DNA of 64,000 bases from Anaeromyxobacter diazotrophicus (GTDB lineage Bacteria; Myxococcota; Myxococcia; Myxococcales; Anaeromyxobacteraceae), in contig NZ_BJTG01000008.1 of the NCBI RefSeq assembly GCF_013340205.1, positions 62,001-126,000 on the forward strand, read 5' to 3'. Numbering within the stretch: position 1 is the first letter of the stretch; every line of letters begins with the position of its first letter. Below, in pieces: positions 57,503-64,000 of the stretch. Position numbers and translations under genes: made by a program. A model generated the notes under the pieces. That model was not told the origin of the DNA. It saw only the letters and a program-made list of their open reading frames with translations, and ran no database searches.

Positions 57503-60010
57503 CTACGGCCCGGCCTGGCGCGCCCGGGGCCCGCCGGCCGGCTCGCCGCCCGCCGCCAGCGCTTCGTCCACCGCCCGCAGGAGCTGCGCGGGCGTGAACG
57601 GCTTCTCGACCACCGTGCTGCCCGAGTCCGCGATCTGGCGCCGGGCCGCCTCGTCCAGGAGGGCGCCGGTCACGAAGACCATCCCGCGCGCCAGCCGCGG
57701 CGCCGCCCGGGCGAGCTCGCGCTGCAGCTCGAGCCCCGTCATCTCCGGCATCAGCACGTCGGAGACCACCACGTCGAAGCGCTCCCGCTCGACGGCGGCC
57801 AGCGCGCCGAGCCCGCTCGCGACCACCGTCACCTGGTGGCGGCGCGCCAGGGCGCGCTCGACCGCGCGCGCCACCAGCGGATCGTCGTCGACGACCAGCA
57901 CCCGCGACCTCGGCTCGCCTCCGTCGGCCGCGACCGGCGCGGGCGTCGTGCCGGCCGACGGCGCCGCCTGCGGGAGCAGCACCGTGAAGGTGCTGCCCTG
58001 GCCCGGGGTGGACTCGGCCCCGATCGCGCCGCCGAGCTCGGTCACGATGCGGTGACAGATGGCGAGGCCGAGGCCCGTCCCGCCCCCGCCCTCGTCGGTG
58101 GTGAAGAACGGCTCGAACAGGCGCGGCAGCACCTCGGGGGAGATCCCGCGGCCGCTGTCGCGCACCGCCAGCGCGACGCGGCCGCCCGGGGCCGGGCGCA
58201 CCGTGATCCGCACCTCGTTCGCGTCGACGCGCCCCTCCGGGATGGCGTGGGCGGCGTTGACGAGCAGGTTCAGCACCACCTGCCCCAGCCGGCCGGCGTC
58301 GCCGCGCACCGGCGGCACCGGGTCGAGCTCGGTCACCACCCGCGCCCGGTGCTTGAGCTCGTGGCGCGCCATGTTGACGGCCGAGGCGATCACCCGCGCC
58401 AGCTCGACCGGCCCGTCCTCCCGCCGGGGGCTGCGCGCGAAGGCGCGCACGTCGGCCACGATGACGCGCAGCCGCGCCGCCCCGTCGGACGCCTCGCGCA
58501 GCGCGGCCAGCACCTCGGGCGCGACGCGCGCGAGCTCGGCCGCGTCGAACCCGGCGCCGGGCCGCTCGGCGAGCCGCGAGAGCTCGCCGAGCGCGTAGTC
58601 GAGGTTGGTCGCGACGTAGGCCAGCGGGTTGTTGAGCTCGTGCGCGACGCCGGCGGCGAGCGTGCCCACCGAGGCGAGGCGCTCGCTGAGGAGGAGCTGC
58701 TCGCGGAGGCGGCGCTGCTCGGTCACGTCGACCGACGTGCCCACCACGCGCAGGGGCCGCCCCTGCGCGTCGCGCCGGAGGATCACCCCGCGCGAGTGCA
58801 TCCACTGGTACGCGCCGTCCTTCCGGCGGTAGCGCAGCTCCACGTCGTAGCAGGGCGCGCGCCCCTCCAGCAGCGCCGCGTAGGCCGCCCGCCGCGCCGG
58901 CGCGTCCTCGGGGTGGACGAGCGCCTCGAAGTCGGCGGGCTCCTGCAGCTCGTCGGGCGCGTAGCCGAGCACCCGGTTCCAGGACGCGGTCGGCTGGACG
59001 TGGCCGGTCGGCACGTCGAGCTCCCAGACGCCGGCGCCCGAGGCTTGCAGCGCGGCGTCGAGCCGCTCGCCGGAGGAGCGGAGCGCGGCGATCTGCTCGC
59101 GCCGGCGGCGCAGCACCTGGGAGGCCGCGGCGGCCGCCAGCGCCGCGAAGCTCGCCAGGGAGAAGAGCAGCGCCGCGCGCGCGGTGCGCCGCGGCCCGAG
59201 CACCTCCGCCTCCGGCAGGAGCGCCACCGCGGTGAGCTCGCTCCCGGCCACCGGCGCGCCGACGGCGACGAGGCGGGCTCCTCCAGGCCCCGCGCCCACC
59301 ACCGCGCCGCGCCGCCCCAGCGCCAGCCAGAGCGCCTCGCGCGGGTTCGCGGCCGTGGGACCGGCGAGCGGGCCGCGGGTCGTCATCACGAGCTCCGCGC
59401 CGGCCTCGCCCGGCCGGACCACCGCCAGCTCGAGCGCGGGCCGGGCGGCCGCCAGCGCCGCCAGCTGCGGCAAGAGGGTGGCCCGCGCCTCCGCCAGCGC
59501 GAGCACGGCGCCTCCCTCGGGGAGCGCCGCGGCCACCTGCATCGTGAGGTCGCCGCCGGCGCCGGCCCGGAGCGCGGTGGTCGCGACGTCGCGACCCTGC
59601 ACCGCCTGCCCGACCAGCCGCGCCTCGCCCTCGTCGAGCGCGCCGCGCCCGGACAGCGAGAAGGCCAGGGAGCCGTCCCGCCGGACGAGGGCGATGTCGC
59701 GGCAGCGGTAGCGGGCCGCCGCGGCGCGGAGCAGCCCCTCCAGCGCCTCGCCGGGGAAGGCGCCCCCCGCGGCGGCGCCGAGGATCGGCTCGACCGCGAG
59801 CACCGCCATGTCGCCGGACCGCTCGTCGCGCCAGGCCGCGATGAGCTTCGCGCCGAGGCTGGCCTCCGCCGCGAGGTGGTCGGCGGCGGCGGCCCACAGC
59901 TCGCGCTCGAGCCGCCGGTCGTAGCGCCAGGCGGCCACGACCACCGCGGCCGAGCAGAGCGCCAGGACGGCCCCCCACGCTGCGCGCTGAGACGTCTCCC
60001 GCACGGCCAT
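57503..60010 (-). CDS. Membrane hybrid histidine kinase (sensor-PAS-HK-receiver)
   Basis: An 835-residue protein. Membrane helices at about 11-27 and 277-298 enclose an extracytoplasmic sensor of about 250 residues of the Cache-like type. A PAS domain at about 313-430 is followed by His457 in GVAHELNNPLAY. The ATPase domain at about 560-690 has NLLVNAAHAI, RDSGRGIS and GTGLGLAI, and a receiver at about 702-815 has Asp751 in SDVLMPEM and a Lys in VEKPF. The ligand is unknown. No cognate regulator gene is adjacent. Confidence 0.92.
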   Translation of the reverse strand: MAVRETSQRAAWGAVLALCSAAVVVAAWRYDRRLERELWAAAADHLAAEASLGAKLIAAWRDERSGDMAVLAVEPILGAAAGGAFPGEALEGLLRAAAARYRCRDIALVRRDGSLAFSLSGRGALDEGEARLVGQAVQGRDVATTALRAGAGGDLTMQVAAALPEGGAVLALAEARATLLPQLAALAAARPALELAVVRPGEAGAELVMTTRGPLAGPTAANPREALWLALGRRGAVVGAGPGGARLVAVGAPVAGSELTAVALLPEAEVLGPRRTARAALLFSLASFAALAAAAASQVLRRRREQIAALRSSGERLDAALQASGAGVWELDVPTGHVQPTASWNRVLGYAPDELQEPADFEALVHPEDAPARRAAYAALLEGRAPCYDVELRYRRKDGAYQWMHSRGVILRRDAQGRPLRVVGTSVDVTEQRRLREQLLLSERLASVGTLAAGVAHELNNPLAYVATNLDYALGELSRLAERPGAGFDAAELARVAPEVLAALREASDGAARLRVIVADVRAFARSPRREDGPVELARVIASAVNMARHELKHRARVVTELDPVPPVRGDAGRLGQVVLNLLVNAAHAIPEGRVDANEVRITVRPAPGGRVALAVRDSGRGISPEVLPRLFEPFFTTDEGGGGTGLGLAICHRIVTELGGAIGAESTPGQGSTFTVLLPQAAPSAGTTPAPVAADGGEPRSRVLVVDDDPLVARAVERALARRHQVTVVASGLGALAAVERERFDVVVSDVLMPEMTGLELQRELARAAPRLARGMVFVTGALLDEAARRQIADSGSTVVEKPFTPAQLLRAVDEALAAGGEPAGGPRARQAGP

Positions 60011-60113
60011 CCCCCGCGTCCGTGACCGTCGCCCAGCATAGCGGACGCCGCGCGGCCCGCCCAGCGAGAGACGCACCCATCGTACGCGGTGCGCCGCCGC
60101 GGGGTGATCCCGA

Positions 60114-62027
60114 TCACGCGCTGGCCGCGGCGCCCCCCGCCGCCGCGTCCGCCCCGGCGGGCGCGACCAGCGGCGGGAGCGGGCACCCGAGCGACGCCGC
60201 GACCGCGCGCACCAGCGCCGCCTCCTGCGGCGTGACGCGGCCGTCGCTGCTGGCGGCCGCGGCGCAGGCGGCGAGGACCCGCAGCTTGAGCGCGGGCGAG
60301 GCCCCGTCGAGCACCTCGAGCGCGCGCGCCGGACCCTCGCTCGCCAGCCGGTCGCGCGGCAGGAGCCGCCAGCGCTGGCGGGCGCCGAGCGCCGCCGTCG
60401 CGCCGTCGAGCGCCGCCTGGGCCAGGGCGGGCTCGCGCGCGCCGGCCCAGCTGAGCAGGGACAGGACCACCAGCGCCTCCGGCTCCACGTCGGACAGGGC
60501 GCGATACCGGACGGGCGTCACCGCGCGCCCCGCGAGGCGGCGGTCGAGGCGGCGCGTCAGGGCGCGGTGGAAGGCCCACGGCAGCACCGCCCCGTGCCCC
60601 GCCTCGCGCGCGAGCGCCGCCAGCTCCTCCCGCAGCGCCCGCGCCTGCGGCGCCGAGAGCGCGTCGAGCGCGGGCGACAGCAGATCGTACAGCGCCACGC
60701 GCGCCTCGCCGCGCTGCCCGTCGAGGAGCGGCGCCAGGCGGGCGACCTCCGCCGCGGTGGCGCCCGCCCCGTCGCCCGCCGCGAGCCCGGCGAGCTGCCG
60801 CTCGCGCGTCGGTCCCGGCGGCGCGAGGAGGAGCGCGCACGAGAGCGCCCTCGCGCCCCACGGCTCGCGGGCGGCGCTCGCCAGCGCCGGCGGCAGCGCC
60901 GCCAGCAGGGCCCCCGCGGCGGCGAGGTGCGCCGGCCCGGGCCCGCCGCCGGCGGCCACGAGCGCGCCGGCCGCCGGCGGGCCTGGCGCGGCCGCGGACT
61001 CGAGCGGGGGCGGAGCCTGGTGCGAGGCTGCGGCGGGGCCGGCCGGCTCCAGGCGGCGCAGGCGCTCCGCGATGGGGGGGTGGGTGGCGAACCACGTCTC
61101 GAGGACACCCACCACGCCGTTCGCGAACAGGAAGTGGTTCACCTGGGAGGCGCCCGGCGCCCGCAGCCGCGAGCCGCGCTCGGCCGCCTTGCGCAGCGCG
61201 CCCGCCAGCCCGGCGGGGTTGCGGGTGAACTGCACCGCCGCGGCGTCGGCCAGGAACTCGCGCTCCCGCACCACCGCGAAGCGCAGGAGCTCGCCGCACA
61301 GCTGGCCGACGGCGCCCGCCACCACCAGCGCGCAGCCCGCCAGGAGCACCAGCGCCGAGACCTGGGCGGCGCCGCGCCGGCGCCCCTGCATGACCCCGCG
61401 GATGAGCAGCCTGCCGGCGAGCGCCAGCGCCGAGAGCCCGCCCACCGCCGCCATGAGCCGCCCGTTGAGCCGGACGTCGAGGTTCAGCACGTGCGAGAGC
61501 TCGTGGGCCACCACCCCCTGCAGCTCGTCCCGGTCGAGCGCCTCGAGCGCGCCGCGCGTCACCACCACCACCGCCCGCGAAGACGAGGCCCCGGCGGCGA
61601 ACGCGTTCACCCCCGGCTCGTCCGGCAGCACGTAGGCGCGCGGCACCGGCAGGCCCGAGGCGATGGCCATCTCCTCGAGGACGTCGCGCAGCCGGCGCGC
61701 GGGCGGATAGCTCGGGTCGGGGGCGAGCGGCACCGCGCCGAGGCGCCGCGCCACCGCGTCGCCGCCGTCCGGCCCGAGCGCCACCGCCTGCCAGCCCGCG
61801 CCGAGCGCCACCACCGCGGCGACGCCCGCCACGACCCAGGCGAGGAGCCGCCCGTTCCACAGCCGCGCCTGGCCGGTGTAGAGGCCGAACGGGAGGAGCG
61901 CCCCCAGGTACACGAGCGCGACGACCAGCGCCGCCGACAGCGCGAACGCGACCAGCAGGAGCGCCGTCCGGCGGCGCGCGGAGGCCTGCCCGGCGAAGAA
62001 GTCGAGGGTGGCGCGCCGCGGCGCCAT
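60114..62027 (-). CDS. HtpX-like M48 membrane metalloprotease with TerB-like C-terminus
   Basis: A 637-residue protein. Four membrane helices (about 21-45, 61-80, 192-215 and 221-245) flank a zinc protease domain with His175, Glu176 and His179 in AHELSH and Glu257-Asp261 in EREFLAD. THPPIAERLRRL follows, as in HtpX. Residues about 345-625 are an additional helical region ending in LRVLAACAAAASSDGRVTPQEAALV, which resembles a TerB-like domain. It is preceded by lemA after a 42-base gap, the common LemA-HtpX pairing in membrane quality control. Confidence 0.88.
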   Translation of the reverse strand: MAPRRATLDFFAGQASARRRTALLLVAFALSAALVVALVYLGALLPFGLYTGQARLWNGRLLAWVVAGVAAVVALGAGWQAVALGPDGGDAVARRLGAVPLAPDPSYPPARRLRDVLEEMAIASGLPVPRAYVLPDEPGVNAFAAGASSSRAVVVVTRGALEALDRDELQGVVAHELSHVLNLDVRLNGRLMAAVGGLSALALAGRLLIRGVMQGRRRGAAQVSALVLLAGCALVVAGAVGQLCGELLRFAVVREREFLADAAAVQFTRNPAGLAGALRKAAERGSRLRAPGASQVNHFLFANGVVGVLETWFATHPPIAERLRRLEPAGPAAASHQAPPPLESAAAPGPPAAGALVAAGGGPGPAHLAAAGALLAALPPALASAAREPWGARALSCALLLAPPGPTRERQLAGLAAGDGAGATAAEVARLAPLLDGQRGEARVALYDLLSPALDALSAPQARALREELAALAREAGHGAVLPWAFHRALTRRLDRRLAGRAVTPVRYRALSDVEPEALVVLSLLSWAGAREPALAQAALDGATAALGARQRWRLLPRDRLASEGPARALEVLDGASPALKLRVLAACAAAASSDGRVTPQEAALVRAVAASLGCPLPPLVAPAGADAAAGGAAASA

Positions 62028-62069
62028 GGCGGCGCTAGCCCGGCCCCGCGGGGACGGTGGTGCGGGCCA

Positions 62070-62657
62070 CTACAGCGCCACCCGCACCGGCGCCCGCTCG
62101 GTCTCGCTGGCGGACTCGTAGGGCGCCGCCTCGGTGAAGCCGAAGGTGCCCGCGAGCGCGCTGGCCGGGAACGACTCGCGGCCGACGTTGTACTCCATGA
62201 CCGCGTCGTTGTAGGCCTGCCGTGCGAAGGCGACGCGGTTCTCGGTGGAGGCGAGCTCCTCGAAGAGCTGCGCCACGCTGCCGTTGGCCTTGAGGTCGGG
62301 GTAGGCCTCCGCCACCGCGACGAGCCGCGCCAGCGCGCCCGAGAGCGCGCCCTCCGCCCCCGCCAGCCGCTGCATCGCGCCCGCGTCGCCCGGCGCCGCC
62401 GCCGCGCCCCGCGCCGCCCCCTCCGCCTGCGCGCGCGCCTGGACCACCGCGTCGAGCGTCTCGCGCTCGTGCTTCAGGTACGCGCGCGTCGCCTCGACCA
62501 GGTTCGGGATGAGGTCGTGCCGGCGGCGGAGCTGGACGTCGATCTGGCTGTAGGCGTTGCGGTAGCCGTTCCGCCGGGCGACGAGCCCGTTGTAGAGCCG
62601 CGCCACCGCCGACCCCAGGACCACCACCACGACGAGGACCACCAGCGCGCCGACCAT
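62070..62657 (-). CDS. lemA: LemA family protein
   Basis: A 195-residue protein with an N-terminal membrane helix (VGALVVLVVVVVLGSAV), then the LemA signature YNGLVARRNGYRNAYSQIDVQLRRRHDLIPNLVE, with LASTENRVAFARQAYNDAVMEYNV toward the C-terminus. The family has an elongated helical bundle and is often linked to membrane proteases. GGAGG a few bases before supports the ATG at 62657 over a GTG at 62663. The M48 protease is directly downstream. Confidence 0.94.
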   Translation of the reverse strand: MVGALVVLVVVVVLGSAVARLYNGLVARRNGYRNAYSQIDVQLRRRHDLIPNLVEATRAYLKHERETLDAVVQARAQAEGAARGAAAAPGDAGAMQRLAGAEGALSGALARLVAVAEAYPDLKANGSVAQLFEELASTENRVAFARQAYNDAVMEYNVGRESFPASALAGTFGFTEAAPYESASETERAPVRVAL

Positions 62658-62747
62658 GGGCACCTCCGGAGCGCCAGCATCGCACAGCGGGGCCGCCCGC
62701 GGTCCACGCGTTCGGGCGGGCGGGGTGGAGCGCCGTGGGCGCCGGAC

Positions 62748-62969
62748 CTACCTCGGCGCGCCGAGGGCGAGGTCGTCGCCCATCCGCGAGCACCCCGCCG
62801 CGTGCGCCTCGCGCCGGAGCGGCGCGCCGGTGTGCCAGCTGAAGGGCTCCACCGCGTGGCTGCACTCCGGGCAGAGCGCCGCGTCCTGCACCAGCTCGCA
62901 GTCCTCGGAGCAGGTGTCCTGGCCAGGTTCGACGGGTTCACCGCAGACGACGCAGCCGAAACGGCTCAT
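62748..62969 (-). CDS. Small zinc-ribbon protein, 73 residues
   Basis: A 73-residue cysteine-rich protein, with CVVCGEP near residue 6, CSEDCEL near 20 and CPECSHAV near 33, plus a late Cys and several His. It probably binds one or two zinc ions. GAGGAG lies shortly before the ATG at 62969, which favours it as real. The function is unknown. It is upstream of lemA with a 90-base gap. Confidence 0.68.
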   Translation of the reverse strand: MSRFGCVVCGEPVEPGQDTCSEDCELVQDAALCPECSHAVEPFSWHTGAPLRREAHAAGCSRMGDDLALGAPR

Positions 62970-63229
62970 GGAGACTCCTCGCTTTCGCGGGGGGAGTGTG
63001 GAGGGGGGATCTGACAGTGGGGGGCGACCTCGACCTGCGACCTGCGACCTCGACCGCGACCGCGACCGCGACCTCGACCACGACCACGACCTCGACCGCG
63101 ACCTCGACCGCGACCGCGAATTGGGACTGCGACTGCGACGCGACTCCGGCGAGTTCGACCTCGACCTCGACGGCGACGAGGGAGGCCATCGCCATTTCCG
63201 CCTCCCTCCTTCGGAGTGAGGAGGCGGAA
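62970..63229. other. Repeat-filled intergenic region upstream of the four-helix-bundle gene
   Basis: About 260 bases between the leftward zinc-ribbon gene and the rightward four-helix-bundle gene. It holds a hexamer array (63024-63119), a degenerate continuation to about 63180, and the left arms of two nested inverted repeats whose right arms lie at the start of the downstream gene. No coding frame is convincing. Confidence 0.7.
63024..63119 (+). repeat. Tandem hexamer array [G/T]CGACC, non-coding
   Basis: About 15 units, mainly GCGACC, TCGACC and ACGACC, with occasional 7-base units that break the register. Because the register breaks, it cannot encode a constant dipeptide repeat over its full length. 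The unit is the same as in the lipoprotein gene at 35622-35729. Confidence 0.8.
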
Positions 63230-63273
63230 ATGGCTCATTCATCTCGTTCATCAATCGTCGTCGAGGTCGAGGT
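63158..63273. repeat. Outer inverted repeat around the four-helix-bundle start
   Basis: ACCTCGACCTCGACG at 63158-63172 is the exact reverse complement of CGTCGAGGTCGAGGT at 63259-63273. The right arm lies inside the coding sequence of the four-helix-bundle gene (codons about 10-15). It encloses the inner palindrome. Confidence 0.75.
63191..63234. promoter_or_regulatory. Hairpin covering the ribosome site and start codon
   Basis: GCCATTTCCGCCTCC at 63191-63205 pairs perfectly with GGAGGCGGAAATGGC at 63220-63234. The 14-base interior itself contains CTCC-TTC-GGAG, so the structure can extend by four more pairs. The 3' arm contains the ATG at 63230-63232, and the ribosome site GAGGAGG (63218-63224) lies at its base, so in mRNA the structure would hide both. 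Spontaneous refolding or a binding protein could open it. Confidence 0.75.
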
Positions 63274-63598
63274 GCTCCCGTTTCAGACACTCGATGTTTA
63301 CGTCGCGGCCCGCGAGCTCGCGGCGCTCGTGCACGCTTTTCGCATCGCGGACGCGGAGCTCCGCGACCAGGCCACGCGGGCCGCGAAGTCGGTCTTTCTC
63401 AACCTCTGCGAGGGGCTGCCCAGCGACAGCGGGCCCATGCGACGCAAGCACTTCGCGCTCGCGAACGGCTCGTTGCACGAGGTGGTCGGGGCCGTGGATC
63501 TGGCGCAGGCCATCGGGGCGCTCGCGCCCGAGCCCGCGCGGCGCGCGCAGGCGCTCGCGGTCCGGGTGAAGCACATGCTGCGCGCGCTGGCGCGGTGA
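63230..63598 (+). CDS. Four-helix-bundle protein (23S rRNA intervening-sequence / S23 type)
   Basis: A 122-residue protein of the S23/IVP four-helix-bundle family. The family pattern FQTLDVYVAARELAALVHAF, then DQATRAAKSVFLNLCEGL and RKHFALANGSLHEVVGAVDLA, is clear, with a further helix to the end (ARRAQALAVRVKHMLRALA). Such genes occur inside 23S rRNA insertions, as Avd partners in diversity-generating retroelements, and alone. No rRNA and no reverse transcriptase is in view, so this copy is stand-alone. The start is hidden in a hairpin and the gene is flanked by hexamer arrays. A role in binding RNA or DNA is inferred from the family. Confidence 0.85.
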   Translation: MAHSSRSSIVVEVEVLPFQTLDVYVAARELAALVHAFRIADAELRDQATRAAKSVFLNLCEGLPSDSGPMRRKHFALANGSLHEVVGAVDLAQAIGALAPEPARRAQALAVRVKHMLRALAR

Positions 63599-63664
63599 GT
63601 CGGGGCGCTCACGTGCGGCACGGCGCACCGGACGCGCCGCACCGCGCCCGCGCGCGCACGAGGC

Positions 63665-63685
63665 GCCATTGCGGAGCGCCGCCCC
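63665..63685. repeat. Dispersed 21-base repeat, copy 2
   Basis: The reverse complement of 10315-10335, identical over 21 bases (begins GCCATTGCGGAG). It lies 67 bases after the four-helix-bundle gene. GGCGC and GCGCC at 63662-63666 and 63676-63680 could form a small hairpin within it. Confidence 0.6.
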
Positions 63686-63915
63686 AGGTCACGCGCTCGC
63701 CGGAACGCGCCGAGGGGACCTCGCCGCGGGCGAGGACTGCTCGAAGCTCCGCGCCGCGGAGGCGGCGCGGTGCAAGGTTCCGCAGCCCGCGTCGCGCGGC
63801 CAGCGGTGCGCGTTCCGGCCGTGGGAGCAGTCCGGCGCGGCGCGGAGCACGGGCGCCGACGCGCGCGCGAGCGCGGGGCGGCGGGGGCAGCCCCTTCGCG
63901 CGCGGGCGAGGGAAA

Positions 63916-63950
63916 CGACTGCGACCTCGACCTCGACCGCAACCGCGACC
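63916..63950 (+). repeat. Short hexamer array downstream of the four-helix-bundle gene
   Basis: About six units (ACGACT GCGACC TCGACC TCGACC GCAACC GCGACC). The unit type is the same as at 63024-63119 and 35622-35729. It and the upstream array bracket the four-helix-bundle gene. Confidence 0.7.
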
Positions 63951-64000
63951 CGGGCCGACTCGACGTCACTGCCCTGCGGGGCCGACGCGCGCGGGGGCGA

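Follow-up and report, generated by a model that had tools for sequence, protein, structure and literature searches.

What does a gene of the S23/IVP family do when it stands outside a ribosomal RNA gene, between arrays of tandem hexamers and with its start codon buried in a palindrome? Members of this family have been known since 1993 as open reading frames (ORFs) in insertions of 23S rRNA genes; their structures have been solved, no function has been assigned, and the mobility of the insertions is an open matter (PMC4990558). The question is raised here by a locus of Anaeromyxobacter diazotrophicus that lies close to the right end of our window, by which we mean the whole 64,000-nucleotide stretch that was analysed (C8:62001-126000, in a 4.83-Mb genome that is 100% complete). 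We propose that the feature is probably a copy, by now partly decayed, of a small mobile element whose only genes encode S23-family proteins. That units of this kind move or are copied, as an initial annotation of the locus had suggested, is very likely, given the dispersed copies that share the palindrome and the arrays, the similarity between relatives that ends at the arrays, and the empty sites in cyanobacterial plasmids.

The features are given in window coordinates and lie on the + strand, except for a repeat, R2, to which no strand is assigned. The S23/IVP gene, here called gene A (63230..63598), encodes a protein of 122 residues. As annotated, hexamer arrays lie on either side of it, both recognised from the sequence: a CGACCN array forms the left border of the unit (63024..63119), and a shorter array forms the right border (about 63916..63950). 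The start codon lies in a palindrome whose left arm, GCCATTTCCGCCTCC (63191..63205), and right arm, GGAGGCGGAAATGGC (63220..63234), are complementary at 15 of 15 positions across a loop (63206..63219) that differs between copies. The initial annotation had correctly placed the ATG (63230-63232) within an arm of this palindrome. The ribosome site, GGAGG (63220-63224), which it put at the base of the stem, is instead found at the loop end, and the ATG lies near the base. The RNA fold of 63120-63300 reaches -91.3 kcal/mol (z -5.9), and 0 of 200 shuffles folded as well. An outer inverted repeat is also present, although it is longer than the 15 bases first reported: its left arm (63158..63176) is part of a second, short hexamer run (63155..63176) that emerged from the inverted-repeat analysis, its right arm (63255..63273) lies in the coding region, and 18 of 19 positions (95%) pair. 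We do not retain it as a separate feature, because it follows from hexamers of the array (CGACCT) that pair with their complement, GTCGAGGTCGAGG, in the VEVE codons among the first codons of gene A.

The full unit, as found in relatives, consists of an array, a hairpin containing the ATG of gene A, gene A itself, a convergent gene B, a hairpin containing the ATG of gene B, and a second array, and it occurs in several copies per genome. In the window, arrays in direct orientation and hairpins are kept, and the right part, where full units have gene B, is replaced by R2 (63612..63886), a repeat of ~270 bp with 84-88% identity to sequences at L005, L103 and L039. At L039 (1566-1837, C2:399.5 kb), R2 adjoins an array without an S23 gene. 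Since the place of gene B is taken by a repeat that is also found without S23, we read the window copy as a partly decayed unit. The gene had been described as stand-alone, which is true of the window copy in that no gene B was recognised there, but incomplete as a description of the unit, given the partner gene in relatives and another copy in the same genome that keeps the gene B hairpin.

The genome holds intact PF05635 genes at C8 (the window), C2 and C5, and a truncated copy at C1. The initial annotation would have been refuted if no other copy had shared the palindrome or the hexamers and the gene in relatives had lacked both; the copies found in this genome and in its relatives speak in its favour. 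In the window's own genome, the arrays are present at all four copies, while the start-codon palindrome is common to the three intact ones and occurs nowhere else, so that it is not a general dispersed repeat. The window unit is 87% identical to the C2 copy and 83% identical to the C5 copy. The latter has lost gene B and retains the gene B hairpin together with one further hairpin; the only exact copy in this genome of a hairpin with a conserved internal loop is also at C5. With a synonymous divergence (dS) of about 0.54 between the own copies and a ratio of nonsynonymous to synonymous divergence (dN/dS) of 0.08, the protein has evidently been kept. More generally, paralogous S23 proteins are under strong purifying selection, the median dN/dS between them being mostly 0.06-0.15.

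Among 179 Myxococcota genomes, 51 contain PF05635 genes, in up to 25 copies and many of them as convergent pairs. Five full units were found in G006 (5,277,990 bp); among the matches listed, their DNA is ~89-94% identical where compared, and the similarity is limited to the array-bounded block. In G040, which belongs to the window's order and to a sister family, single S23 elements lie in unrelated flanks and have long inverted ends; each end combines a GGGAAA array with a hairpin that has an internal loop, of the same kind as the one at C5. Some other arrangements were seen in passing. In G178 (L196-L201; 15 S23 matches), the S23 pairs are divergent, not convergent, and some have heptamer arrays of several sequences. 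In one relative, a group II intron (RF02005, RF00029) lies directly beyond gene B (L071 3821-5696). A mir-4716 match in L079, located at the palindrome and scoring below that family's cut-off, was discarded.

How closely are the arrays tied to S23 genes? In the window's own genome, arrays of five CGACCN-type hexamers give 98 + 152 matches (overlapping windows), against 0 for the reversed pattern. Near related units, CGACCN arrays lie on the strand of gene A in 36 cases and on the other strand in 3. CGACCN arrays occur in 12 of 24 family genomes; a strong A/B-type gene is present in 10 of these 12 and in 0 of the 12 array-free genomes, a count in which the weaker S23 genes of G014-G016 are left out. 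In 72 of 106 Myxococcota loci, S23 has a period-6 or -7 array <=700 bp away, compared with 2 of 55 control windows from the window's family and 2 of 34 from the rest of the window. These counts serve as a guide, not as a test of independent events, because a few genomes contributed many of the loci and all controls were drawn from the window's family. Over the whole family, the border arrays have periods of 6-8. The repeat unit varies by lineage, being CCCGCT in G032 and heptamers in G178, G177 and G170, and at L149 and L152 single S23 genes lie between inverted heptamers.

One could ask whether the arrays are the active component. Arrays that expand as microsatellites might carry S23 units along passively through homologous recombination, with S23 being kept for some other function. 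This explanation would account for the fact that the similarity between copies stops at the arrays and that the arrays of both sides share one orientation; it also agrees with the observation that most arrays lack S23 and that arrays bear the repeats R1 and R2 as well. However, it does not predict the association of arrays with S23-bearing genomes, and it is hard to reconcile with the arrays of unrelated sequence that border S23 genes in distant lineages. We consider it unlikely, also in view of an exact empty site described below. The arrays themselves have further settings. Repeat R1 (~316 bp, copies 87-91% identical, ends GGCGGCGGGGTGGCCCTCC / GGAGGGCCACCCCGCCGCC) adjoins hexamer arrays in the window's genome at L010 1494-1809, L014 1121-1434 and L018 1236-1554. 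At L035 1500-1542 (C2:373293-373334), L017 and L029, CGACCN arrays run in frame within coding genes, where they add TSTATSTA-type linkers; the genes concerned are apolipoprotein N-acyltransferase-like, TolC-like and one other. G005 contains CGACCN arrays at many sites and no PF05635 gene.

Further signs of movement come from plasmids, where S23 genes are mostly cyanobacterial. Around 22 plasmid S23 genes, an array lies to the right in 16 cases and to the left in 11, and one unit is inverted on both sides in 9; the corresponding figures for 91 control genes are 2, 3 and 0. The heptamer units differ (AAGTCAG, GGGAAAA, ACAGGTG, AACAGGG, AGGGTGT and others). In plasmid C of Trichormus variabilis, an S23 element of ~420 bp is exactly absent from the 98%-identical plasmid01 of Fremyella. 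The element is flanked by GTAAT twice, that is, by a 5-bp duplication, and the empty site has no heptamers. This insertion therefore used no pre-existing array, which argues against passive spread along microsatellites. A decayed remnant occupies the same site in Nostoc C052. In Nostoc ATCC 53789, two plasmids each carry an S23 element where the other is empty, and relatives without the gene exist for an S23 gene of Aulosira. A relative of Anabaena 90 (cas6-S23-cas4) also lacks S23, but this case is not a clean empty site because the relative has other sequence there.

A short element with inverted ends and a 5-bp duplication resembles the product of a transposase, and S23 might thus be mere cargo of elements similar to miniature inverted-repeat transposable elements (MITEs), which a conventional transposase supplied in trans would mobilise, the palindromes and arrays being the ends that it recognises. 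An S23-less insert with heptamer arms at the homologous site of one plasmid would also suit such a mechanism. On the other hand, elements of a single host can already differ in their ends (AAGTCAG, GGGAAAA), so that a single sequence-specific transposase would fail to recognise them, and the strong purifying selection on the S23 protein between copies is not what is expected of cargo. We regard transposition in trans as rather doubtful. The S23-less insert itself (L273 561-823) has GGGAACA/TGTTCCC-type heptamer arms and lies at the homologue of a Nostoc edaphicum site where L228 has an S23 element; the insert is possibly a non-coding derivative. We also observed S23 genes within cas operons (L226 1995-2363, L234 2001-2360 and L238 1992-2348), for which earlier reports of S23 genes in cas loci exist. 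Their neighbours on either side are cas6 and cas4 in type I-D operons and cas10 and cmr3 in type III-B operons, with heptamer arrays at L226 and L234.

The second suggestion of the initial annotation was that of a translationally self-controlled gene whose product binds its own mRNA. In the Anaeromyxobacteraceae and the sister family (G040, G043), a long stem has both the start codon and the ribosome site in its right arm. An in-frame start within a stem of 11 pairs or more was found for 50 of 145 S23 genes and for 16 of 377 control ORFs. In 21 distinct hairpins, chosen for stems of at least 14 pairs and for Watson-Crick pairing, every ATG is paired and almost all remaining positions swap between Watson-Crick pairs, with compensatory changes on both sides in 12 of 12 consensus pairs; such a stem was obtained in 0 of 420 shuffles. 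Because the hairpins were picked for Watson-Crick pairing, the near absence of G-T pairs was not used as evidence for DNA rather than RNA. The start hairpin is not a universal S23 feature: it is absent from G032, from most of G178 and from single high-scoring S23 genes. Palindromes of the AAAAATGCGGTTT type were observed near S23 gene starts in G178.

A static gene, regulated by its own product through the start hairpin and with arrays and dispersal being incidental, would be well served by these 21 stems with their buried ribosome sites and ATGs, and by a window fold far stronger than that of shuffled sequences. Nevertheless, it would leave the dispersed copies, the convergent pairs, the array borders and the empty sites without explanation, and it is further weakened by the S23 genes that lack the start hairpin. 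As a complete account of the locus it seems to us quite unlikely. Judging from the base pairing, translational self-control through the buried start is nonetheless possible as a property of the units, and it would be compatible with their mobility.

The protein leaves little doubt about the family. The assignment of gene A to S23/IVP made in the initial annotation is confirmed by matches to PF05635 (47.4 bits, curated cut-off 33.8, E 2.4e-12) and TIGR02436 (42.3 bits, curated cut-off 24, E 7e-11) and by a predicted structure, modelled as a monomer, that adopts the four-helix-bundle fold with a predicted local distance difference test score (pLDDT) of 91.9. The model superposes best on XCC0516 (PDB 2gsc; Z 17.4, root-mean-square deviation 1.4, 27% identical) and BT_0352 (PDB 2rld; Z 17.2). 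Avd of diversity-generating retroelements (DGRs; PDB 4dwl, 8ub7) has the same fold (Z 12.8-13.9), which is what might lead one to take the locus for a remnant or satellite of a DGR or another retroelement, served in trans by a resident reverse transcriptase. However, there is no RVT_1 match anywhere in the window's genome, nor in the unit-bearing genomes G009, G017 and G018, and we therefore discarded a resident enzyme in the window's genome; a retroelement origin is highly improbable. Likewise, an Rfam scan of window positions 60000-64000 found no known structured RNA, and the gene does not lie in a 23S rRNA gene. Both results bear out the view that neither of the known settings of the family is present.

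Several points weigh against a mobile unit and have to be set beside the evidence above. For neither the window copy nor any other Myxococcota copy did we find an empty site at base-pair resolution, as neighbouring genes are non-syntenic in the available relatives; a search for the empty site of the window copy by way of lemA and the activase gene gave none, again without synteny. For the C2 copy, 21 relatives lack the unit on the mutS2 side, but the other side is unmatched. Of the cyanobacterial sites, one shows a clear target duplication and a second an approximate one; none was seen at the others. The paired units have direct, not inverted, arrays and thus do not simply repeat the layout of the cyanobacterial elements. 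S23-free arrays are also found (most array sites in G000 and all in G005), and several S23 genes lack arrays (Riemerella, Azospirillum and several Myxococcota singles). The S23 loci are not independent of one another. Finally, we know of no DNA-cutting catalytic residue in S23.

How the units move, and what S23 contributes, we infer as follows. A ring of S23, presumably of the five subunits that characterise the family, would bind RNA or single-stranded DNA hairpins formed by the borders or by the palindrome at the start, and might help the insertion or copying of its own unit. The tandem arrays would be the borders and perhaps, through homology, the landing sites, and the buried start codon could hold S23 at a low level until the hairpin opens or is bound by the product. 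Recognition by structure appears likelier than recognition by sequence, because the borders vary greatly between elements while the layout persists. That S23 itself is the mobility factor can be advanced tentatively at best. Its extension is equally doubtful, though possible: S23 proteins may be structure-recognising mobility factors of minimal elements, in at least the Myxococcota and the Cyanobacteria. Such an element would consist of nothing but a four-helix-bundle protein without enzymatic activity and its borders of hairpins or arrays, and the intervening sequence (IVS) of 23S rRNA would be the special case lodged in rRNA helices.

With these units, the S23 family gains a genomic setting beyond ribosomal RNA genes and DGRs; array-bordered units of the same kind also house related S23 genes of other phyla. 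The large, testable set of S23 elements standing on their own, with its copies, borders and empty sites, opens the mobility question. It also ties the family to the dispersed short tandem repeats of bacteria, the origin of which is unexplained, and mobile S23 elements could account for the S23 genes in cas operons.

Among known systems, the dispersed period-7 arrays of the cyanobacterial short tandemly repeated repetitive (STRR) sequences and of the heptamer elements of Geobacter and Beggiatoaceae resemble the arrays described here (PMC4692102, PMC2700814, PMC4679880), and a term search of those papers gave no link to S23 genes. In the open-access literature we found no link of S23 genes to short tandem arrays or mobile elements, an absence that is weak evidence. 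MITEs and small insertion elements share with the G040 and cyanobacterial S23 elements their shortness and inverted ends, and with the cyanobacterial ones a 5-bp duplication that is clear at one site, but S23 units encode a conserved, selected protein and end in tandem arrays of varying sequence. The unit itself encodes no HUH transposase of the IS200/IS605 or REP/RAYT type. Avd resembles the gene A product in fold, whereas the reverse transcriptase that accompanies a DGR is missing from the window's genome. XCC0516 and BT_0352 are the closest solved structures, although the window protein falls into a different sequence group in alignments judged by eye. Closest of all is the 23S rRNA IVS. 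That of Coxiella burnetii, with an S23 ORF and a 28-bp stem, has been called a selfish element whose mobility is proposed and unproven (PMC4990558). Like the S23 units, the IVS is a short element with an S23-family ORF, and the cyanobacterial singles likewise are an ORF between complementary ends. Unlike the IVS, the S23 units lie outside rRNA, are bordered by tandem hexamers or heptamers and occur in many copies, and in the lineage of the window the start codon lies in a palindrome of its own and the full unit carries two convergent genes.
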